NCBI GenBank assembly: GCA_012520575.1
Contig: JAAYOB010000005.1
Location: 17,632 to 81,631 of the forward strand
DNA from: Candidatus Stramentimicrobium fermentans
GTDB lineage: Bacteria; Atribacterota; Phoenicimicrobiia; Phoenicimicrobiales; Stramentimicrobiaceae
Length of the DNA stretch: 64,000 nt
Reading direction: 5' to 3'
The position numbers and the translations under genes were made by a program. This document shows positions 15,654-41,547 of this stretch, piece by piece. Numbering within the stretch: position 1 is the stretch's first letter; every line of letters begins with the position of its first letter. The notes below the pieces were generated by a model, which saw only the letters and a list, made by a program, of their open reading frames with translations, was not told where the DNA came from and did no database searches.

Positions 15654-15717
15654 TGATTTTAAATGAACTTAGCTTCCAAAAATTTCTTTTTTTAAAAATA
15701 TTTAAATGAGGTTTAGA

Positions 15718-16764
15718 ATGAAAATTACAGAGTTGCTAAGAATTACTCGAGATGCAGAAGCTTCCGACCTACACTTGACAGTCGGTGCTCCGCCTACCAT
15801 TAGAGTAAACGGTTTGCTTTCTCAACTAAATTATCCCGCTTTAGAAGATATTGAAGTTAACGAGATGCTTTACAGCGTTCTGAGTAAAGAGCAGATAAAA
15901 AAACTTGAAGAATTAAAGGATATAGATTTTTCTTTAGAGATTTTGAATGTTGCCCGCTTTAGGGCAAATGTGTTTATGCATAGACGTGGATTAGCCGGGG
16001 CATTTCGTTTGATTCCGGAAAGGATTAAAAGTTTGGAAGAATTAGAACTTCCCCTTGGACTGGCAGATTTTACTAAAAAAGCGAAAGGATTGGTTCTTGT
16101 TACCGGACCTACCGGGAGCGGTAAATCGACAACTATTTCTACCCTGATTGATATAATCAATGAAAGAGATAATCTACATATTATTACCATTGAAGACCCT
16201 ATTGAATTTATTCATCAGCACAAAAATTGTATCATTGATCAGCGAGAGGTTGGCTTGCATGCCAGGTCATTTTCCCTTGCTCTAAGAAGTGCTTTAAGAG
16301 AAGACCCGGATGTCATATTAGTTGGGGAAATGAGAGATTTAGAAACGATATCTATGGCCGTTACCGCTGCCGAAACAGGCCATTTAGTATTTTCAACTCT
16401 TCATACCAATAGTGCCGCTGAGACTATCGAACGTATTATCGATGTGTTTCCCCCTCACCAGCAAAGACAAATCCGAATCCAATTAGCCGAGTCTTTACAG
16501 GGGGTTATTTCTCAGACTTTATTGCCTAATATCGATCAGAGCAAGAGAGTGCCGGCAGTAGAGGTGATGGTAGCTACTCCGGCTATAAGAAATATTATAC
16601 GTGAAGAAAAGATTCATTTAATCCCGGCGACCATACAGAGCTCTCAGCAGTACGGGATGCAGTCAATGGACCAATCTCTGCGGAAATTATTCCGTAATCA
16701 TATAATCGATAGAGAAACAGCTTTATACAGAGCAAGGGATACCAGTTATGTTCTGTCGCATTAA
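15718..16764 (+). CDS. pilT: Type IV pilus retraction ATPase PilT
   Basis: Hexameric motor that depolymerises type IV pili, powering twitching and DNA uptake. The N-terminal ASDLHLTVG segment, Walker A GPTGSGKSTT (about 130-139), an EDPIEF Asp-box and the AETGHLVFSTLHT His-box are all present. Start set at ATG 15718 because GAGG (15708-15711) precedes it by six bases; the upstream in-frame ATG at 15706 overlaps that site. Length 348 fits PilT (about 345) rather than PilB. It lies 16 kb from the main pilus locus. Confidence 0.95.
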   Translation: MKITELLRITRDAEASDLHLTVGAPPTIRVNGLLSQLNYPALEDIEVNEMLYSVLSKEQIKKLEELKDIDFSLEILNVARFRANVFMHRRGLAGAFRLIPERIKSLEELELPLGLADFTKKAKGLVLVTGPTGSGKSTTISTLIDIINERDNLHIITIEDPIEFIHQHKNCIIDQREVGLHARSFSLALRSALREDPDVILVGEMRDLETISMAVTAAETGHLVFSTLHTNSAAETIERIIDVFPPHQQRQIRIQLAESLQGVISQTLLPNIDQSKRVPAVEVMVATPAIRNIIREEKIHLIPATIQSSQQYGMQSMDQSLRKLFRNHIIDRETALYRARDTSYVLSH

Positions 16765-22058: not shown

Positions 22059-22305
22059 GCAAGGCAAATAAGATTAGTTGCCCTGCTGTGATCGCTAACT
22101 GAATAAGTTTTGACCCAACACTTTTCCAAAAAGGAAATTGATCTCCGGGTGTGAAATGCAAGCCTGTGGTTTTCCGAAAGGTTTGCCTAAAATTAACAGC
22201 GATGTTAATTAACTGGACGCATGAAGCATTCGGGTAAATATCCACCTGTTTGAGGGTCGGATTCAAAACTTGTTGTTTGCGGCATAGCAGGGTTATTGTT
22301 TGTCT
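22059..22305 (+). ncRNA. ssrS: 6S RNA-like structured RNA (ssrS candidate)
   Basis: No protein is encoded here, yet the stretch folds as a long rod. CCCTGCTGTG (22081-22090) pairs with CATAGCAGGG (22283-22292). AAGTTTTG (22105-22112) pairs with CAAAACTT (22264-22271), and GACCC (22112-22116) with GGGTC (22254-22258). A large asymmetric bubble separates the two helices. Inner hairpins include AATTAAC/GTTAATT. A consensus promoter lies just upstream and a 5-formyl-THF cyclo-ligase gene just downstream. A rod with a central bubble next to that gene is the known 6S RNA setting (ssrS-ygfA). 6S RNA mimics an open promoter and binds housekeeping RNA polymerase. At about 245 nt it is longer than usual, so another ncRNA class remains possible. 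Confidence 0.65.
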
Positions 22306-25101: not shown

Positions 25102-26823
25102 TTGGAAATAGATAAAAAAAATAATATCTATTTTGCAAATTTAAGATTGGGTGAAATCCTTATCAATGAGGGTGCTATAAGCTCAGAGCAGCTAAAAAAA
25201 GCGCTGGAAGTTCAAAAAATCGATAGAAAAAAGAAGGTAGGAGAAATACTGCTCGAGCAGGGAGTAATTACTCAAAGGCAGCTCAATAATGCTTTGCAAT
25301 ATGTCTATGGGACCGAATATATTGAACTGAAGGATGCGATCATAGACCCGGAAATAGTTACTCTTATTCCCAAGAATATCGCCCTTCGATACAAAGTGGT
25401 GCCTCTCAATAAAGAAGACAGCACTTTAACCATTGCCATGGCTAATCCGTTGGATGTAAACGCTATTGATTATATCAGAGGATATACCCGCCTGGAAGTT
25501 AACCCCAAATTCGCAAGCGAAAATGAAATTATTAATGCCCTGAGTCATTATCACGATGCAGGAGAACAGTTTGATGACCTTTTAGAAAAGGTTGATATAG
25601 CTACTATAAGTGATGTAAATGACGAAGTAAACCTTTCTGCTTTAGAGGCTATCAGCCAGGAAGCCCCTATTATTCAATTAGTGAATATGATAATTGTAGA
25701 TGCTATTAAAGAAAGGGCTAGCGATATCCATTTAGAACCCAATCAGAGAGGTTTGTTAGTTCGTTATCGTATTGATGGCATATTACACGATATTCGTATG
25801 TTGCCTGTTAGAGTTCGGCCGGCGGTAATTTCTCGAATTAAAATATTATCTTATATGGACATAGCGGAAAGGCGTTTACCCCAGGATGGCCGCTTTCAGC
25901 TCCGTTTTGGAGCCCGTGAGGTCGATTTGAGGGTATCCTCAATCCCTACCGTTTTTGATGAAAAAATTGTAATTAGAATTTTAGATAAGAGTCAGGGAGT
26001 AATTTCTCTGAAAAGTATCGGTTTTACCGATACCCAATTGAATGAATTCCGCCGGATGATAAGTAGGCCGCATGGTATTATTCTTATTACCGGACCAACC
26101 GGTAGCGGTAAGAGCACCACCCTTTATGCCGGTTTAAATGAAGTTGACTCTACCAGCAAGAATGTAATTACGGTTGAAGACCCGGTAGAATACAAATTAG
26201 ACCGGATAAACCAGATAAATGTCAGACCAAAAATAAACCTTACTTTTGCTAATGCGCTCCGCTCTATTTTACGTCAGGACCCCGATATTATTATGATTGG
26301 TGAAATGAGGGACTCCGAAACTGCCCATATTGCTGTGCAATCTGCCCTGACCGGGCATCTTGTCTTTAGTACACTGCATACCAATGATGCGGTTGGCTCT
26401 TTAACCCGTATGATTGATATGGGAGTAGAGCCCTTTTTGATTGCCTCCTCTATAATTGGAGTTATGGCGCAAAGATTAGTTCGAAAAATATGTGAACACT
26501 GTAAAGAAGAATATACACCGGATGAAAATATTTTTGATGATCTCCGGCTTAATTTTGAGTTGCCTGATAAAAAAAGCATCAAGCTTTATCGGGGTAGGGG
26601 CTGCAGCCACTGCAAAAATACCGGCTACTATGGCCGGACATCTATTTTTGAGATGATACCTATAAATGATGAGATTCGCTCTCTCATTTTGAAAAAAACT
26701 TCCAGCAATGAGATAAAAGAAGTTGCTATCCGTTATGGCATGAAGACACTTTTGGATAGCGGAATAGCTAAAGCCCTGGCTGGAATTACCTCTATTGACG
26801 AAGTATTCCGAGTAGCTGTATAA
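25102..26823 (+). CDS. pilB: Type IV pilus assembly ATPase PilB, copy 1
   Basis: Cytoplasmic hexameric motor that powers pilus extension (GspE/PilB family). An N-terminal MshEN-type domain (about 15-150, with LGEILINEGAIS and VGEILLEQGVIT repeats) precedes the ATPase core. Walker A is GPTGSGKSTT (331-340), the Walker B region DPDIIMIGEMRD is present, and the His-box is LVFSTLHTND. A zinc-binding tetracysteine (CEHC...CSHC) lies near 465-505. MshEN domains bind c-di-GMP in some relatives, so second-messenger control is possible. TTG start at 25102; it lies 15 bases after rpsA. A second, different copy lies at 32885. Confidence 0.95.
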   Translation: MEIDKKNNIYFANLRLGEILINEGAISSEQLKKALEVQKIDRKKKVGEILLEQGVITQRQLNNALQYVYGTEYIELKDAIIDPEIVTLIPKNIALRYKVVPLNKEDSTLTIAMANPLDVNAIDYIRGYTRLEVNPKFASENEIINALSHYHDAGEQFDDLLEKVDIATISDVNDEVNLSALEAISQEAPIIQLVNMIIVDAIKERASDIHLEPNQRGLLVRYRIDGILHDIRMLPVRVRPAVISRIKILSYMDIAERRLPQDGRFQLRFGAREVDLRVSSIPTVFDEKIVIRILDKSQGVISLKSIGFTDTQLNEFRRMISRPHGIILITGPTGSGKSTTLYAGLNEVDSTSKNVITVEDPVEYKLDRINQINVRPKINLTFANALRSILRQDPDIIMIGEMRDSETAHIAVQSALTGHLVFSTLHTNDAVGSLTRMIDMGVEPFLIASSIIGVMAQRLVRKICEHCKEEYTPDENIFDDLRLNFELPDKKSIKLYRGRGCSHCKNTGYYGRTSIFEMIPINDEIRSLILKKTSSNEIKEVAIRYGMKTLLDSGIAKALAGITSIDEVFRVAV

Positions 26824-32884: not shown

Positions 32885-34612
32885 ATGACGCGCTCCCTAA
32901 AAGAAAAAGGAATAACCGGTGAATTTTTACTAAATTTATTGGTCAGTAAAAAAATTATCACCAGCAAAGAGGCTGAAGAGATTTGCCGTAAACAAGGAGA
33001 AAACGGTTTACCCGTACAGAGAATAGTCCTGGATTCGGGCATTCTAAACAAAATAGAGATGATGCAATTACTCTCCTGCGAAATTGGTATTCCGTATTTA
33101 GATTTAGAGGGCAGGACCTTTGACCCTTCTATATTGGCACTGGTCTCTGAAGAGCTTTCCCGTAAACATAATCTGGCTACCATCGATAAAAAGAACGGCA
33201 AACTTGTGGTAGCTATGGCTAACCCTTTAGATGTCTTCGCACATGATGAGATTAGAATCCTGACCGGCTTTGATGTGGAACCCTATTTGGCTTGCAGAGA
33301 GGATATCAACAAGGTTTTAGATTCAGTCTATGGAATTACCGAAAGTTGGCAGCAGATGATAGGGGAGATATCGTCGCTTCCCATAGCGGCGGTAGAAGAT
33401 GAAGTCGAAGATATGGAGATTACCAAAGGTATTTCAGAAAGTCACGAAGCCCCTGTTATTGCCCTGGTGAACCTTATTTTGCTTCGTGCCATTAAGGAAA
33501 GTGCCAGTGATATCCACATAGAACCGTTCGGCGATAAATCATTAAGGGTGAGATATCGCATTGACGGAATACTGCACGATATTATGTCTCCTCCCCGCAG
33601 TTTGCATATGGCAATTATTTCGCGTGTAAAAATTATGTCCCACCTCAATATAGCCGAGAGACGTCTGCCGCAGGATGGCCGAATCAAAGTACAGGTACAT
33701 GGCCGTGAAATCAATTTTCGGGTGTCCACCATTCCTGCTGTAAACGGAGAGAGTGCGGTATTAAGAATATTAGACCCGGCTCAAATCAGATTAGATTTAA
33801 AGACACTCGGCTTTTCCAAAGATAATTTTATTAAATTCCAAGAACTCATTACCAGGCCAAATGGTATTATTCTGGTTACCGGTCCTACCGGCAGCGGCAA
33901 GTCTACCACTTTATATGCCGTTTTAAATACCTTGAATTCTCTTGAAAAAAAGATAATGACCATAGAAGATCCGGTAGAATACCGCTTAGACGGGATAAAT
34001 CAATTACAGGCAAAACCAAAAATAGGTTTGACATTTGCTGCCGGTTTGCGTAGTTTTCTGCGTCAGGACCCCGATATAATGTTAGTGGGAGAGATACGGG
34101 ATAAAGAAACTGCTGAGATTGCTATTCAATCGGCGCTGACCGGGCATTTAGTTTTAAGCACCCTGCATACCAATGATGCTCCCAGTTCTGTTATCAGATT
34201 GGTGGATATGGGCATTGAACCGTTTTTGATATCTTCTTCTGTGATAGGGATACTGGCACAGCGCCTGGTGCGTAAAATTTGCTCTTATTGTAAAAAAGAA
34301 GTGCCCATAACCAATGAAATAAAGAATATTTTAGGAGAATGCCATTCAGATTCAGAGAATATTAAAATATTCCATGGTGAAGGATGCAGCCATTGTAAAA
34401 ATACCGGATATAAAGGAAGAACTGCCATTTTTGAATTTATGATAGTGAATGATTGTATTCGAGAATTAATCTATAGGAATGCCCCTCTTTCTGAAATTAG
34501 GGAGGCTGCCATTAAAGTAAATGGCATGCTTACTTTAAAAGAAGATGGTTTACAGAAAGTTATAGAAGGATTAACTACAATGGAAGAAGTAATGCGCGCC
34601 GCTTCCGCCTGA
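32885..34612 (+). CDS. pilB: Type IV pilus assembly ATPase PilB, copy 2
   Basis: Second GspE/PilB motor, 575 residues. MshEN-like N-terminal region (about 10-150), then the ATPase core with Walker A GPTGSGKSTT (333-342), Walker B segment DPDIMLVGEIRD, His-box LVLSTLHTND and a tetracysteine pair (CSYC and CSHC). Its core is close to that of copy 1, but the N-terminal domain has diverged (ITGEFLLNLLVSKKIIT). This copy heads the main pilus locus and is followed by pilC after 316 bases, so it is the likelier partner of PilC. The paralogues may drive two filament types or different stages. Confidence 0.93.
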   Translation: MTRSLKEKGITGEFLLNLLVSKKIITSKEAEEICRKQGENGLPVQRIVLDSGILNKIEMMQLLSCEIGIPYLDLEGRTFDPSILALVSEELSRKHNLATIDKKNGKLVVAMANPLDVFAHDEIRILTGFDVEPYLACREDINKVLDSVYGITESWQQMIGEISSLPIAAVEDEVEDMEITKGISESHEAPVIALVNLILLRAIKESASDIHIEPFGDKSLRVRYRIDGILHDIMSPPRSLHMAIISRVKIMSHLNIAERRLPQDGRIKVQVHGREINFRVSTIPAVNGESAVLRILDPAQIRLDLKTLGFSKDNFIKFQELITRPNGIILVTGPTGSGKSTTLYAVLNTLNSLEKKIMTIEDPVEYRLDGINQLQAKPKIGLTFAAGLRSFLRQDPDIMLVGEIRDKETAEIAIQSALTGHLVLSTLHTNDAPSSVIRLVDMGIEPFLISSSVIGILAQRLVRKICSYCKKEVPITNEIKNILGECHSDSENIKIFHGEGCSHCKNTGYKGRTAIFEFMIVNDCIRELIYRNAPLSEIREAAIKVNGMLTLKEDGLQKVIEGLTTMEEVMRAASA

Positions 34613-34928: not shown

Positions 34929-36137
34929 ATGCCATCATATTCTTTTAAAGCTCGGGACAGTTCCGGGCGGCTTTTGTCCGGCAGTATGGAAGCAAACAGC
35001 CGGGAAGCAGCTATCGAACGGCTGCATGAAATGAGATATTTCATTGTTTCCGTGGAAGAAAAACGCAAAAGTTTGCTCTCTACCGAAATAACCATTTTCA
35101 AAACTATCACAATTCGGGATTTGGCCATCTTCTTCCGCCAATTTGCTACCATGGTTAAAGCCGGCTTATCACTGATTAGCTGTCTGGATATATTATCAAA
35201 ACAGACTGAAAATAAGCTGTTGGCTAAAAAAGTAGATGATATCAAAAAAAGTGTGGAAGGCGGTTCCACACTTGCCGAAGCCTTTGGCAACCACCCGGAA
35301 ACTTTTTCTAAATTATATCTGAATATGATTAAAGCCGGAGAGGTCGGCGGAGTGCTCGATGATGTTCTGAATAGGATGGCTACCTTAATGGAAAAGGAAT
35401 ATGAGCTGCGGCAGAAAATAAAATCTGCTATGACTTATCCTTTATTTATCTTCGGTGCTGCGATGATAATGGCAGTATTCATGCTGACCTTTATCTTACC
35501 CCAATTTGTGGGAGTATTCCAATCCTTTGGGGGAGAGCTTCCTTTTCTGACTAAAATATTAGTATTTGTCACAATGGTTTTTAACCGTTTCTGGTATATT
35601 TTCCTGGCAGCTTTTGTTCTCCTTGTTTTTGCCTACATCGGTTATAGCCGTACCCAACATGGGCATAGAAATATTGACCGCATAAAATTAAAATTACCGA
35701 TTTTCGGTAATCTGTTCCTTAAAACATCCATCACTCGTTTTGCCAGGACTCTGGGCACTTTAATCCAAAACGGTGTTCCCATTATTCAATCTTTGAAAAT
35801 TTCCGCCGAATCTATCGGCAACGATATCCTTGCTGAAGCGGTAATGGAAGCATCTGACCGCATCAAAGAAGGTCAGAGCATCTCCGCACCGCTGGAAGAA
35901 AGCAAAGTATTTCCGCCCATGGTAACTCAGATGATATTAGTAGGGGAGGAGAGCGGAGGGTTAGAAACAATGCTCTTCAATGTTGCTAACTTTTATGATC
36001 AGGAAGTGGAAAGGGCCATAGAGCAGCTGACTTCTGTAATTGAACCGATGATGATGATAGTGGTAGCCCTGGTAGTGGGTGTAATGGTTATCGCTATGTA
36101 TCTGCCTATTTTCAGTATGGTGCAGCTGATACAATAA
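34929..36137 (+). CDS. pilC: Type IV pilus inner-membrane platform protein PilC
   Basis: Polytopic membrane protein linking the PilB/PilT motors to the growing filament. Two repeats of the T2SSF fold are visible: FFRQFATMVKAGLSLISCLD (first copy) and FARTLGTLIQNGVPIIQSL (second copy), each followed by a GxxLxxA/LE and EESGGLE-type segment. Three transmembrane stretches lie near 170-190, 215-240 and 372-395. 402 residues matches PilC/GspF. Start is ATG behind GGAGG. The end is followed after 26 bases by the sigma-like gene. Confidence 0.96.
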   Translation: MPSYSFKARDSSGRLLSGSMEANSREAAIERLHEMRYFIVSVEEKRKSLLSTEITIFKTITIRDLAIFFRQFATMVKAGLSLISCLDILSKQTENKLLAKKVDDIKKSVEGGSTLAEAFGNHPETFSKLYLNMIKAGEVGGVLDDVLNRMATLMEKEYELRQKIKSAMTYPLFIFGAAMIMAVFMLTFILPQFVGVFQSFGGELPFLTKILVFVTMVFNRFWYIFLAAFVLLVFAYIGYSRTQHGHRNIDRIKLKLPIFGNLFLKTSITRFARTLGTLIQNGVPIIQSLKISAESIGNDILAEAVMEASDRIKEGQSISAPLEESKVFPPMVTQMILVGEESGGLETMLFNVANFYDQEVERAIEQLTSVIEPMMMIVVALVVGVMVIAMYLPIFSMVQLIQ

Positions 36138-36163: not shown

Positions 36164-36694
36164 TTGGCGGCAGCAGAAATCGAAAGTAATAATTTCCAAC
36201 CGAACTGTAACAGCAATAAGATTGAAGAAAATTTAGCTTTTTTAAAAGAAGTAGTGCAGGAGTTTCAAAATTCCGGAGAGCCGGAAGAAGAACTTATGCA
36301 GGTAGGTTATATTGGACTATTAAACGCGGTTAACTTATATCAGGAACATCAGCAGGATACTTTCCAACAATATGCCGGTAATTTAATTCGGGGAGAGATT
36401 CGTAACCATATCAGAGAAAAGAATAAGAAAGTAGATATACCGGATTGGTTATCGGTAATAATAAATAAATTGTTGAATCAGATGCTTACTGCCTATCGGA
36501 AACAGTATAATAAATTTCCCAGTTTAGCGGAACTCTCTCAAATGCTCGAACTTTCACCGGAAATATTAAAAGAGGCCTTAAAGGCACGCAAGGCGGCAGT
36601 GGAGGTTTCTATCGACCAGCACAGAAGAAGCACTATTGACTTACAGGAGCCTCTTGATATAGTTAAAATCAGAAAAGAAATCAATAAAAGGTAA
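36164..36694 (+). CDS. Sigma-factor-like protein lacking region 4
   Basis: The 176-residue product resembles the sigma factor encoded next to it but is incomplete. Residues 41-92 match sigma region 2 (ELMQVGYIGLLNAVNLY, then IRGEIRNHIREKNKKVDIP), and 97-142 match region 3 (KFPSLAELSQMLELSPEILK). It then ends in a short charged tail without the region 4 helix-turn-helix. Region 2 is also eroded: the aromatic melting residues seen in the neighbour (FTTYATW) read FQQYAGN. The frame is clean, so it is a real gene rather than a decayed copy. It could pair with another sigma subunit (as RsoA does with SigO in Bacillus), compete with its neighbour, or regulate it. TTG start behind AGGTG; its stop is one base before the next start. 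Confidence 0.75.
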   Translation: MAAAEIESNNFQPNCNSNKIEENLAFLKEVVQEFQNSGEPEEELMQVGYIGLLNAVNLYQEHQQDTFQQYAGNLIRGEIRNHIREKNKKVDIPDWLSVIINKLLNQMLTAYRKQYNKFPSLAELSQMLELSPEILKEALKARKAAVEVSIDQHRRSTIDLQEPLDIVKIRKEINKR

Positions 36695-36695
36695 C

Positions 36696-37409
36696 ATGGA
36701 AAGTAACGATAGCATCGATTATTCGAATAGATTCAATGATGAAATTGTCAGCAAATATCAGCCCCTGGTCAGGTCAATTGCCAGAAAGTATTATAATTCA
36801 GGGGAACAGGTTGAAGATTTAGAGCAGATCGGTTATCTGGGATTACTTAATGCCCTGCAGCTCTTTAATGAAAAAAAAGGCGTTAAATTCACTACCTATG
36901 CCACTTGGCTGATTAACGGGGAAATTCGCCATTATTTAAGGGATAAGCATGCCGTTGTCAAAATCCCTTCCTGGATCAGACAGCTTAATAGAAAAATCGA
37001 CCAATATGTTGAAAAATACTATAGTGAACACAAAGAGTTCCCTTCTATGGAACAGATTGCCGATGTATTGAATATAACGGAAGAAGGTGTTCAGGAAATT
37101 TTAAAAGGCAGGAAATCAGTGCAGGTGGTTTCTTTAGATAAAAGTATCAGGGAGGATGATATTGACGCTATCCCTTTGATAGAAAACATAAAAAGCAAAG
37201 AATACCGTTCTTTCCAATTACCCATAGAAGATACCATACATTTAAAGAATACCATAAGTAAGCTTAAAAAGATTCACAGGCAGGTAATTTATTACCTGTT
37301 CTATATGGACTTAAGCCAGACCAGGGTTGCTAAAATGTTAGGAATAACGCAAAGGCAGGTATCTCGTATCAAAATGGAAGCTTTAGAAGAATTGCGAAAA
37401 AATATTTAA
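36696..37409 (+). CDS. Alternative sigma factor of the sigma-B/F/G group
   Basis: Complete group 3 sigma-70 protein, 237 residues. Region 2 at about 20-90 (DLEQIGYLGLLNALQLF, FTTYATWLINGEIRHYLRD), region 3 at 97-140 (FPSMEQIADVLNITEEGVQE) and region 4 at 183-235 with the helix-turn-helix LSQTRVAKMLGITQRQVSRI. The GEIRHYLRDK segment and overall spacing resemble Bacillus SigB/SigF more than FliA. No anti-sigma or anti-anti-sigma gene lies nearby. It starts one base after the region-4-less paralogue, in the pilC transcript. Three pilin-class genes downstream share a promoter motif close to that of this sigma class, so it may drive pilin expression; that link is inference. Confidence 0.85.
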   Translation: MESNDSIDYSNRFNDEIVSKYQPLVRSIARKYYNSGEQVEDLEQIGYLGLLNALQLFNEKKGVKFTTYATWLINGEIRHYLRDKHAVVKIPSWIRQLNRKIDQYVEKYYSEHKEFPSMEQIADVLNITEEGVQEILKGRKSVQVVSLDKSIREDDIDAIPLIENIKSKEYRSFQLPIEDTIHLKNTISKLKKIHRQVIYYLFYMDLSQTRVAKMLGITQRQVSRIKMEALEELRKNI

Positions 37410-38127: not shown

Positions 38128-38160
38128 GTCTAAAATTCTGAAAATAGGGAATAATATAAT
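38128..38160 (+). promoter_or_regulatory. Alternative-sigma promoter P1 of the first pilin gene
   Basis: GTCTAAAA (38128-38135), 13 bases, GAATAA (38149-38154), 70 bases before the pilin ATG. Two further copies of the same motif stand before the pilin-class genes at 38830 and 41065. It is close to GTTTAA-N12/14-GGGTAT (sigma-B type) and CTAAA-N15-CCGATAA (sigma-28 type), and unlike the sigma-A promoters of the tRNA genes. Confidence 0.7.
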
Positions 38161-38224: not shown

Positions 38225-38698
38225 ATGAGAAATATAACTGTTAAAAAAGAAGATAAAACCGAAAATAAGGTGGGGTTCACCTTAATAGAATTGATGGTTG
38301 TTGTTGCCATAATAGGCATACTCTCTTTATTTGGATTGAGAGTCTATGCCGGTTTTCAGTACAAAGCCAAAGATGCCCTGTTAAAAGGTAATGTTTCTAC
38401 CATTCATACCCATATACAAACGGAATTGTCAGACGATAAGAAGAGCGCCACGGAAGTCTGGACCAATATAGACGACATATTCCTTGCCTCCGGCATCTAT
38501 TTTCCGGCAGCAGGCAATCCCCAGCAGGGCAATATTGAGGGGATATCGACAGCCGAGCCGGCATCATTAACCGGTTTAGGCGGAAAGGTCTTTGTCTTTG
38601 TAGACAGCACTGCCGCTCCTACCAGGTTTTATGTCAATGGCGTTAATGCGGAGGAGACCGGTTTTGTCTTCCCGGAATCCTTAATTGCCCAAAAATAA
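38225..38698 (+). CDS. Type IV pilin-like protein, first copy
   Basis: Class III signal and pilin helix: cleavage is predicted between G17 and F18 in VGFTLIELMVVVAIIG, with Glu at mature position +5 (E22). The mature chain is about 140 residues; after the helix comes KGNVSTIHTHIQTEL, a segment shared with the next two pilin-like genes. No cysteine pair forms a classic D-region, as expected for GspG/PilE-like short pilins of this kind. A 17-residue charged leader is longer than that of copy two. Whether this or the next gene gives the major subunit cannot be decided. Transcription is predicted from P1. Confidence 0.88.
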   Translation: MRNITVKKEDKTENKVGFTLIELMVVVAIIGILSLFGLRVYAGFQYKAKDALLKGNVSTIHTHIQTELSDDKKSATEVWTNIDDIFLASGIYFPAAGNPQQGNIEGISTAEPASLTGLGGKVFVFVDSTAAPTRFYVNGVNAEETGFVFPESLIAQK

Positions 38699-38726: not shown

Positions 38727-38759
38727 GTCTAAAAAAGATATTATGTGGAATAACATATA
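38727..38759 (+). promoter_or_regulatory. Alternative-sigma promoter P2 of the second pilin gene
   Basis: GTCTAAAA (38727-38734), 13 bases, GAATAA (38748-38753), 76 bases before the ATG. Identical in both boxes and spacer length to P1, although the spacer sequences differ. Confidence 0.7.
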
Positions 38760-38829: not shown

Positions 38830-39258
38830 ATGTTCATGTACTTACACAAAAACAAAAAAGGTTTTACCTTAATCGAACTGATGGTCGTAGTTGCCATTAT
38901 CGGCATCCTGGCGCTGCTGGGCTTGCGTCTCTACGCCGGGCAGCAGGAAAAAGCCAAGAATGCCATTGTTAAAGCCAATGCCGGTACCATACAAACCCTG
39001 ATTCAGGCCGAATTAGCTGACGCTGCTGTTGCCGACATTGATTTAGACGAAATTTTTGGTGCCGCTGGTATATACAATCCTTATACAGGTGAGGCTCAAA
39101 CAGTAAGCGGTAGCGATGAAGGAGAGGTTGGGGCTAGTTTAGGTGCATACGTTAATGACGCTAGCGGTGCAGGTGCAGAAGATAACGTTTTCTATATAAA
39201 TGGTTATGGTTCTGATGGAGATTTTGTATATGGCAGAGATTTAGAAGCGCGAAAATAA
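38830..39258 (+). CDS. Type IV pilin-like protein, second copy (likely major pilin)
   Basis: 142-residue prepilin with a short leader. Cleavage is predicted between G11 and F12 in KGFTLIELMVVVAIIG, with Glu+5 at E16. The conserved segment KANAGTIQTLIQAEL follows the helix. The C-terminal half is glycine-, alanine- and acid-rich with few lysines, as in an exposed filament surface. It has its own promoter (P2), AAGGAG (38813-38818) and a strong terminator, so it forms a single-gene unit; that setting fits a highly expressed major pilin. An ATG six bases later (MYLHKN) is an alternative start. Confidence 0.88.
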   Translation: MFMYLHKNKKGFTLIELMVVVAIIGILALLGLRLYAGQQEKAKNAIVKANAGTIQTLIQAELADAAVADIDLDEIFGAAGIYNPYTGEAQTVSGSDEGEVGASLGAYVNDASGAGAEDNVFYINGYGSDGDFVYGRDLEARK

Positions 39259-39548: not shown

Positions 39549-39947
39549 ATGAGAATAAACAATCAGAAGGGCATTACCGTTCTTTCCTTGCTCATACTGG
39601 TGCTTATTGTCGGAGGGGGAATTCTCTATGGGCCCAAACTTTTTAACCATGTGATCGACCGGAATATAAAAAGATTGGTTACGGCCAATGCCAAATCCGT
39701 AGAGACGGAGATACGCTCCGAATTAATCAATAGACATCCCATTCAAATCTGGAATGATATGGATAAACTCATCAATGCTTTGAATTTTCAAAACCCGGTG
39801 CTTTCGGAAAGGCAGACTAAAAATGGCTGGGACCGCCCGGGTGATGTGGTAGTCTCCTTTGACGGTATCAATACTTTCCGCCTGGACGGCATAGGGCGCG
39901 ACGGTTCTTCCTTCGGCCTCAATATCATAATACAAAGATCAAAATAA
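39549..39947 (+). CDS. Pilin-like protein lacking the conserved Glu+5
   Basis: 132 residues with a short charged leader and a hydrophobic helix. If cut after G8 (KGITVLSLLILVLIVGG), position +5 is Ser instead of Glu. The segment VTANAKSVETEIRSEL clearly matches KANAGTIQTLIQAEL and KGNVSTIHTHIQTEL in the two preceding pilins, and HPIQIWNDMDKLI echoes the first copy (VWTNIDDIF). So it is a third paralogue. Absence of Glu+5 is seen in tip pseudopilins such as GspK, which start the filament; a tip or initiator role is a fair guess. RBS AGGAGGGG precedes the ATG. A degraded version of the pilin promoter motif (GTCTTTTT-N13-TATTAT, 39488-39514) lies upstream. Confidence 0.8.
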   Translation: MRINNQKGITVLSLLILVLIVGGGILYGPKLFNHVIDRNIKRLVTANAKSVETEIRSELINRHPIQIWNDMDKLINALNFQNPVLSERQTKNGWDRPGDVVVSFDGINTFRLDGIGRDGSSFGLNIIIQRSK

Positions 39948-39981: not shown

Positions 39982-40755
39982 ATGGTACAAATGACACAAA
40001 TATTTACTACAATCATTATATTCATTATCGGTCTGGTAATCGGCAGCTTCAGCAATGTCTGCATTTACCGCCTACCCCGCAACGAATCAATCGTATTTCC
40101 CGGTTCCCATTGTCCCCGGTGCAGCTATCCCATTGAATGGCACGACAATATCCCGCTCATCAGCTATATCATCTTAAAGGGGAAATGCCGTTCCTGCGCT
40201 GAAAAAATATCCCTGCAATACCCTTTGGTAGAGTTTTTAACCGCCTCACTTTATCTGTTTTTATTCTATTTCTATGGATTGCAATTACGCACCGTTGTTT
40301 ATATGGTATTCTGTTCCGCTTTAGTAATAATCGCTTTCATCGATTTGAAAGAAAAGATTATTCCCGATGTTATCTCTCTTCCCTTAACCGCCCTCGGCTT
40401 TCTATCGAGTTTTGTCTTAAAAAACATCTCACCTTTAAACTCTCTGCTCGGCATTCTGGCGGGAGGGGGAAGCTTGTATTTAATAGCTATAGCCGGCACC
40501 TATATATTCAGGAAAGAAGCCATGGGCGGAGGGGATATCAAATTATCCGCCATGGTCGGTGCTTTTTTAGGATGGCAGCTCGCCCTGCTTTCGCTCTTTA
40601 TAGGATTCTTGCTGGGCTCTGTAATCGGTATAATTGTTCTGATGAAAACGAAAGGAGAAATCAGGGATGTTCCCTTTGGACCATTCATTGCCTTAGGTAC
40701 CCTGATTGCTCTCTTCTTTGGTCAAGGCATACTCGATTGGTATTTTCTGCTTTGA
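39982..40755 (+). CDS. pilD: Prepilin peptidase / N-methyltransferase
   Basis: Inner-membrane aspartyl protease that cleaves prepilin leaders and methylates the new N-terminus. The N-terminal cytoplasmic zinc loop has C44, C47, C69 and C72. The catalytic aspartates are D120 (FIDLKEKIIPD) and D184 (GGGDIK). Eight or so transmembrane segments are evident. 257 residues is typical. Both domains are complete, so methylation is expected. It sits among the genes for its substrates, 34 bases after the Ser+5 pilin-like gene. An in-frame ATG nine bases on (MTQIF) is possible. Confidence 0.95.
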   Translation: MVQMTQIFTTIIIFIIGLVIGSFSNVCIYRLPRNESIVFPGSHCPRCSYPIEWHDNIPLISYIILKGKCRSCAEKISLQYPLVEFLTASLYLFLFYFYGLQLRTVVYMVFCSALVIIAFIDLKEKIIPDVISLPLTALGFLSSFVLKNISPLNSLLGILAGGGSLYLIAIAGTYIFRKEAMGGGDIKLSAMVGAFLGWQLALLSLFIGFLLGSVIGIIVLMKTKGEIRDVPFGPFIALGTLIALFFGQGILDWYFLL

Positions 40756-40991: not shown

Positions 40992-41024
40992 GTCTAAAAT
41001 TTGTTATAATATGGAATAATATAT
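40992..41024 (+). promoter_or_regulatory. Alternative-sigma promoter P3 of the minor-pilin genes
   Basis: GTCTAAAA (40992-40999), 14 bases, GAATAA (41014-41019), 45 bases before the ATG of the GspH-like gene. The third copy of the motif seen at P1 and P2; here the spacer is one base longer. Confidence 0.65.
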
Positions 41025-41064: not shown

Positions 41065-41547
41065 ATGAAATACCATTATGAAAGGTGTAATAGCGCTAAA
41101 TCGAACCGCGGATTTACCCTGATTGAATTAATGGTTGTAGTCGGAATAATTGCGGTGCTGTTAACAGTTACAGGAAGGGCTCTTTTTATCGTAAAACAGA
41201 ACCACGACCTGAACATTACGGCTCGTCAAATAGAGGCAGCTCTGAAAGATTGTCAGGCCAGTGCTTTTTATAGCGGAAGCTGGTATAAGGTTTACTTCTG
41301 GCCATCTATAAACCGATACCGGGTTTATCGGGGAGCGGGTGAAGTGGTGAAGGATGTCCAGTTGGAAAACATAAAACTGCACCACACCAATTTTATAGAC
41401 CACAGAGTTGACTTTTATAGTACCGGTATACCCAGTATGGGCGGTACTGTAACTTTAAAAAATAAAAACGGGAAGACATTATATGTTATCATGACACCGG
41501 TGACCGCCAGGACGAGAGTAAGCACAGAACCGCCGGATAATTGGTAG
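41065..41547 (+). CDS. GspH/FimT-type minor pseudopilin
   Basis: 160-residue prepilin. Cleavage is predicted between G16 and F17 in RGFTLIELMVVVGIIA with Glu+5 at E21. The region after the helix (ITARQIEAALKDCQASAFYSG) and the later beta strands with a V.F...G sequence (VDFYSTGIPSMGGTVTL) resemble GspH/FimT proteins, which join the filament tip complex. Promoter P3 lies 45 bases upstream. It is the first of four minor-pilin genes. Confidence 0.85.
   Translation: MKYHYERCNSAKSNRGFTLIELMVVVGIIAVLLTVTGRALFIVKQNHDLNITARQIEAALKDCQASAFYSGSWYKVYFWPSINRYRVYRGAGEVVKDVQLENIKLHHTNFIDHRVDFYSTGIPSMGGTVTLKNKNGKTLYVIMTPVTARTRVSTEPPDNW

Follow-up and report, generated by a model that had tools for sequence, protein, structure and literature searches.

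A truncated sigma paralog encoded beside a SigB/F/G-like factor in a pilus locus of Atribacterota, and its possible role as a restrainer of its full-length twin

Anti-sigma factors usually derive from unrelated folds, and pilin genes are reportedly placed under a dedicated sigma factor both by ComX in streptococci and by the sigma cascade of Nostoc hormogonia. The locus described here would share with ComX and the Nostoc cascade a sigma factor dedicated to pilins, but those systems involve other sigma groups, and their sigma genes do not lie between pilC and the pilin genes in the company of a truncated twin. In Bacillus subtilis, regions 2 and 4 of one sigma factor are divided between two proteins, SigO and RsoA (PMC8103513). 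The PhyR protein of alphaproteobacteria contains a sigma-like domain that has degenerated in its promoter-binding and core-binding functions and titrates NepR (PMC8103513), and gp55 of phage T4 provides the function of sigma2 without sigma4 (PMC7408454).

The short protein considered here resembles the SigO–RsoA system in that a region 2 protein without region 4 is encoded beside another sigma-like gene, but the partner there consists of region 4 only and here it is complete. An analogy to SigO–RsoA, drawn in the original prediction, fails on this point, as the downstream partner holds both region 2 and region 4, and also because full-length factors in a sister family serve the same kind of promoter with no short partner. 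The nearest parallels are PhyR and T4 gp55, both of which differ in defining features. The likeness to PhyR lies in a sigma-like protein with eroded promoter contacts and a putative regulatory use; unlike PhyR, the short protein has no receiver domain, PhyR mimics an ECF factor, and NepR has no known counterpart here. T4 gp55 is likewise a region 2-type sigma protein without region 4, but it is active and promoter-specific, whereas the short protein has lost its melting residues and shows no link to gp33 or a clamp. The full factor is like the SigB/SigF/SigG group of Bacillus in its region 2-3-4 order, its best-matching model (TIGR02980), its relation to structure 1l0o and its similar predicted promoter, but it resides in a pilus locus, lacks an RsbW/SpoIIAB partner gene and scores under the TIGR02980 cut-off. 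To the original prediction the present analysis adds the origin of the short protein from a full-length tandem sigma factor, the promoter motif, a second eroded paralog under that motif, and a new hydrophobic face on region 3.

The window, i.e., the whole stretch of 64,000 nucleotides that was analyzed, belongs to an Atribacterota genome of 1.58 Mb that is 98% complete, and the features of its pilus locus are all on the forward strand. Genes for a PilB-type assembly ATPase (32885–34612; MshEN and T2SSE domains) and a PilC-type platform protein (34929–36137; T2SSF) are followed, 26 bp downstream of the latter, by the short gene (36164–36694; 176 aa) and then the full SigB/F/G-type sigma gene (36696–37409; 237 aa). 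The sigma pair thus precedes the gene for a protein with the Pfam domain DUF6982 (PF22478; 37439–37900) and those for pilin 1 (38225–38698), which has an N-methylation motif, and pilin 2 (38830–39258), assigned from its sequence. Farther downstream are a pilin-like (pseudopilin) gene (39549–39947), which gave no match in a Pfam search and whose homologues are weakly similar to pilins 1 and 2; the gene for the prepilin peptidase PilD (39982–40755), also assigned from sequence and with a homologue in genome G026 that matches Peptidase_A24; and a second pilin-like gene (41065–41547) with an N-terminal FTLIELMVV motif.

The anatomy read earlier from this sequence, in which two paralogous genes lie one base apart, the first without region 4 and with an eroded melting segment and the second a full SigB/F/G-like factor, was borne out. 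The two products share 34% identity across regions 2–3 (E 1e-27), and a single base separates the stop codon of the short gene from the start of the full one in the junction AAAAGG-TAA-C-ATG (36686–36698), in which the AAAAGG, within the final codons of the short gene, is probably the ribosome-binding site of the full sigma gene. The short gene begins with TTG, downstream of the Shine-Dalgarno sequence gaggtg. Its product passed the Pfam model for region 2 (Sigma70_r2, 35.8 bits, cut-off 24) and reached only 15.3 bits for Sigma70_r3, under the cut-off of 25.3; Pfam found no region 4 in it or in any readable copy of the family, and neither another Pfam domain over its cut-off nor a fused receiver domain was present. 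In its predicted structure, region 2 superimposes closely on sigma domain 2 (8b3z, Z 14.5, 1.0 Å over 77 residues), with region 3 and the tail modeled at lower confidence. The full protein passed the cut-offs for region 2 (70.3 bits), region 3 (35.0 bits) and region 4 (50.7 bits). Its best NCBIfam model was TIGR02980 (SigBFG) at 194.4 bits, under the curated cut-off of 234.35, and its closest relative in the PDB is SigF of the SpoIIAB complex (1l0o); by sequence it is SigB/F/G-like rather than a filed member of TIGR02980.

The distribution of the pair was surveyed in 50 genomes of the phylum, drafts throughout, of which 24 belong to the order of the window and 26 do not. The order pilC-short-full was found in 8/8 genomes of the window's family that have the locus, i.e., the window and seven further genomes, so the pair is not a product of chance or of an assembly error; in one of them (G046) the pair is present with parts of both genes masked. 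Wherever the pair was found it was linked to pilC, with zero copies away from pilus genes, and the short gene is common to at least three genera (g1, g3, and g4). Two other genomes of the family, G041 (68% complete) and G045 (78% complete), have neither a locus sigma nor pilC. Short and full frames overlap by 4–29 bases in five of the six other family genomes in which the junction is readable, and in 6/7 genomes the start codon of the short gene is TTG or GTG. A ninth short copy, on a 3-kb contig (G030:C53, L044), is probably contamination, because it is nearly identical to that of G044 and G030 is a sister-family genome with a full-length locus of its own. Across the order, locus sigma and pilC agree in 24/24 genomes (16 with both, 8 with neither). 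Sigma and pilC are on different contigs in G027, G031, and G039, so their co-occurrence is not merely single-contig dropout, and genome incompleteness may explain some of the absences. One strict scan covered other phyla; its only match was a distant sigma factor in an Actinomycetes metagenome-assembled genome, which is not evidence of absence.

In the sister family, the same slot contains one full-length sigma gene (G029, G030, and G027) or two in tandem (G031, G032, G039, and G040, and likewise G037, across two contigs); wherever they can be read, regions 2.3 and 4 of these factors are intact. Because the slot carries one or two full-length factors there, the short gene is, by its sequence, a truncated tandem sigma gene that lost region 4. 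The short proteins are monophyletic on a long stem (support 99/97). Deep branching in the sigma tree is weak and does not fix their position among the full-length copies: AU tests gave p 0.39 for the short proteins as sister of the upstream copy of the sister family, which neither favors nor rejects that placement, and p 0.43 for short plus full.

The residues retained by the short proteins suggest a protein whose constraint has shifted rather than been lost. Sites were numbered in what we take to be the sigma70 scheme, anchored on Y430, and were counted as conserved if kept in at least 90% of 20 full-length relatives. The short proteins retain 12 of 15 such sites in core-binding regions 2.1–2.2, 9 of 11 in region 2.4, 10 of 20 in region 3.0–3.1, and 2 of 7 in melting region 2.3. 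Equivalents of K426, T429, and W433, kept in 20/20 full-length relatives, are missing from 7/7 readable short proteins, and that of Y430 is also gone in G042. The D403 equivalent is kept in one of seven, with E mostly in its place, and the Q406 equivalent is changed from Q to E in two of seven. The short gene is neither unique to this genome nor under relaxed selection, being present in eight genomes and subject to purifying selection: for the best pair (G049/G047), omega (dN/dS) is ~0.09 for the whole gene and 0.07 in regions 2–3. Silent sites are saturated or nearly so in more distant pairs, and the values for G043/G044 (0.47 for the whole gene, 0.23 in regions 2–3) come from too few changes to tell.

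In a comparison over one set of six genomes, identity in regions 2–3 is 79% between short proteins vs. 72% between full ones. Conservation of region 3.0–3.1 is higher in the short proteins (0.73 vs. 0.65), and the opposite trend is seen in region 2.3–2.4 (0.68 vs. 0.85). Hydrophobic residues have been gained at short-protein positions 99, 103, 110, 115, 127, and 134, where the full factors have mostly polar or charged residues, and positions 99, 103, and 110 share one helix (94–115) in the predicted structure. Such a pattern in region 3 would suit a new protein interface better than decay. The short gene as a pseudogene is disfavored by omega, by conservation and by clade-specific residues, and the reading frames are intact.

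A side-by-side reading of the regions upstream of the pilin genes yielded the motif GTCTAAA-N13/14-GGAATA. In the window it has three matches vs. zero expected from 100 shuffles, all 47–78 bases 5' of pilin-like ORFs: GTCTAA-N13-GGGAAT at 38128–38153, ~72 bp upstream of pilin 1; GTCTAA-N13-TGGAAT at 38727–38752, ~78 bp upstream of pilin 2; and GTCTAA-N14-TGGAAT at 40992–41018, ~47 bp upstream of the pilin-like gene that begins at 41065. Phylum-wide, 78 matches were found in 23 of the 24 genomes of the order (one probable contaminant counted) vs. a single match in the 26 other genomes, and a control with the reversed pattern gave about ten matches across all 50; the motif was derived from part of these same sequences, and its genome-wide specificity extends far beyond them. 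The predicted promoter, GTCTAA-N13/14-GGGAAT, is like the SigB promoter of B. subtilis, GTTTAA-N14-GGGTAT (PMC9847131), with C at position 3 of the −35 element here. It is probably the target promoter of the full factor. By hand count, the spacer is mostly 13 bases in the window's family and nearly always 14 in the sister family.

Genes downstream of the motif fell into clusters encoding pilins (18 proteins, some counted twice), surface lipoproteins (13), C39-like peptidase lipoproteins (11) and a sigma paralog (7), and, by eye, PAS/GAF/HD-type signaling proteins (9) and Sir2-like proteins (5). The suggestion that the pair exerts dedicated control over the pilus agrees with its constant position beside pilC and with this probable pilin and surface-protein regulon of the full factor. 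One to three matches also occur in some genomes of the order without a detected locus sigma; there, either another factor may recognize the motif as well or the assembly may lack the sigma gene. The strict motif was not found 5' of the pilB-pilC-sigma genes, and relaxed scans there returned chance numbers only, so autoregulation of the locus by the pilus sigma factor is unsupported.

The sigma paralog under the motif is a second eroded member of this lineage. At G000:C34:3195-3908 (L059, L111) it is preceded by GTCTAA-N-GGGAAT, as it is in seven genomes of the window's family in all (further copies: L116, L120, L127, L135, L138, and L146). In G000:C34 and six other genomes of the family, TYAQILITEEMHQYLLNRN replaces TYATWLINGEIRHYIRDK; the recognition helix lacks the Q..SR residues, and regions 2.3/2.4 and 4 are eroded. 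Region 4 is shortened in G000, G043, and G049, and Pfam finds none even in the longer copy of G047. In several genomes the second paralog is followed by a gene for a PAS-type protein.

Of the mechanisms considered, the likeliest is one in which the short protein restrains its twin. The full factor would be a dedicated SigB/F-type sigma factor that activates GTCTAA-N13/14-GGGAAT promoters and thereby the genes for pilins and surface proteins. The short protein would be a former tandem full-length sigma factor that, having lost region 4 and its promoter-melting residues, was retained as a sigma-like regulator inert at promoters. Translated from a shared message, immediately before the full factor, it would restrain that factor either by taking the place of sigma on core RNA polymerase or through contact with the factor itself or with its holoenzyme, acting through the conserved core-binding region 2 and the remodeled region 3. 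This explanation as a whole is tentative, and we would put it somewhat below an even chance. The retention of core-binding sites together with the loss of melting sites favors a promoter-inert core binder, and a second eroded paralog under the pilus-sigma promoter would fit feedback by proteins of sigma descent; a main reason for favoring sigma-derived regulation is that one regulon has two proteins of this kind attached to it, both with eroded promoter contacts. Core binding and promoter inertness are predicted from residues, and the direction of the effect, restraint rather than assistance, is the boldest step. Against restraint by competition, the remodeled and constrained region 3 points to a specific protein partner, a lone region 2 fragment should be a weak competitor of RpoD and of the full factor, and the equivalents of D403 and Q406, key core contacts, are altered in some short copies. 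The TTG and GTG starts argue mildly against a short protein in large excess, and the true regulator could be DUF6982, whose gene adjoins the locus sigma.

A different role would be that of an anti-anti-sigma decoy, in which the short protein, by its likeness to the full factor, titrates a putative anti-sigma factor, possibly the DUF6982 product, so that the pilus sigma factor is turned on. SpoIIAB docks on SigF at region 3 (1l0o), and it is in region 3 that the short protein is best conserved relative to the full one and has a remodeled face; both families have DUF6982 after the locus sigma, and PhyR is a precedent. The decoy is nevertheless unlikely, given that the sister family has DUF6982 and sigma together without a short protein, that core-binding residues, none of which a pure decoy needs, are mostly kept, and that DUF6982 has no shown link to sigma factors and known anti-sigma genes are absent from the locus. 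Quite unlikely, in our judgment, is a helper subunit that joins the full sigma factor in the holoenzyme or passes it to core, thereby raising or retuning promoter activity in the window's family: every region is already present in the full factor, we know of no role for a second region 2, and the full-length factors of the sister family serve the same motif without such help. The coupled genes, the retention of regions 2.1–2.2, 2.4, and 3, and the shorter spacer of the window's family would suit a helper, although the spacer shift may be lineage drift. A further argument for it is the contact made with SigO by the region 2.3-like segment of RsoA, as stated in the title of a reference listed in PMC8103513.

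An autonomous minimal sigma factor like T4 gp55, recognizing promoters without a −35 contact, would be in keeping with the mostly retained region 2.4 and has gp55 itself as a precedent. It is very improbable, as the equivalents of W433 and T429 are gone in every copy, and that of Y430 in G042, and gp55 works with gp33 and a sliding clamp, partners of a kind not seen here. The least probable account makes the short gene a non-functional remnant kept solely for translational coupling of the downstream gene; the start of the full sigma gene does overlap the short gene in most genomes, but the low omega, the conservation of regions 2–3 above that of the full factor and the clade-specific invariant residues are hard to reconcile with it.

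If the restrainer explanation is true, a sigma factor became the regulator of its own twin, i.e., an anti-sigma factor evolved from a sigma factor, and the one-copy, two-full-copy and truncated arrangements in related genomes would allow the origin of sigma control to be traced stepwise. An extension, in which this lineage swapped anti-sigma proteins for sigma paralogs, with the short protein as a co-made inhibitor of its twin and the second paralog as feedback, seems to us doubtful, though not far-fetched. The motif also offers a promoter and regulon that can be tested for pili and surface proteins in Atribacterota, where regulatory genetics is very scarce; the open-access Atribacterota papers searched do not mention pili or sigma factors.

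The original prediction had noted that an anti-sigma gene was missing, and no gene of the RsbW/SpoIIAB type (HATPase_c_2) was found at the locus; the window's genome has one sub-threshold HATPase_c_2 match, on another contig. DUF6982 is a candidate partner or regulator of the locus sigma under any model. Wherever the contigs of the two families allow it to be seen, its gene comes after the locus sigma, separated from it by small ORFs in one or two genomes, and sometimes there are two copies; in the window's family it comes next after the pair where readable, and G049 has a DUF6982 gene farther along. It was found in 0/14 well-known control genomes, and no paper on it was found in the open-access literature searched. 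The predicted fold consists of tandem small beta barrels (pLDDT 88). Foldseek returned nothing with E < 0.001 for this model, and VIA gave Z up to 6 vs. Sm/Hfq-like and YaeO barrels, a likeness that may merely reflect a common barrel.

Several other elements were observed. The window's ORFs at 25102–26823 and 15706–16764 are matched by PilB homologues at 41–49% identity, so that it contains more than one pilus/secretion-type ATPase. A 6S RNA lies at 22077–22297 (79 bits), and no Rfam RNA or riboswitch over threshold was found close to the sigma locus. A split sigma factor, unrelated to the pair, takes the form of two ORFs in some dozen genomes belonging to the order, a region 2 ORF (~95–120 aa) followed on the same strand by a region 4 ORF (66–110 aa), at G000:C36:52181-52684 (L062, L182) and in L183-L195; it looks like a SigO/RsoA-type two-subunit sigma factor in Atribacterota. 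Its region 4-only ORF, the sole one found in that genome, was considered as a partner of the short protein and rejected, as it belongs to the adjacent region 2 ORF. In the sister family, a GAF and HD-type protein is encoded between pilB and pilC (L049:3958-5088; domains identified in G032), with ORFs of 371–381 aa in the same position in L050 and L053; it is absent from the window, and in G026, of another family, genes for an HD-domain protein, PilD and a sigma factor are neighbors. The GAF and HD-type protein may be a hint that cyclic-di-GMP controls the locus.
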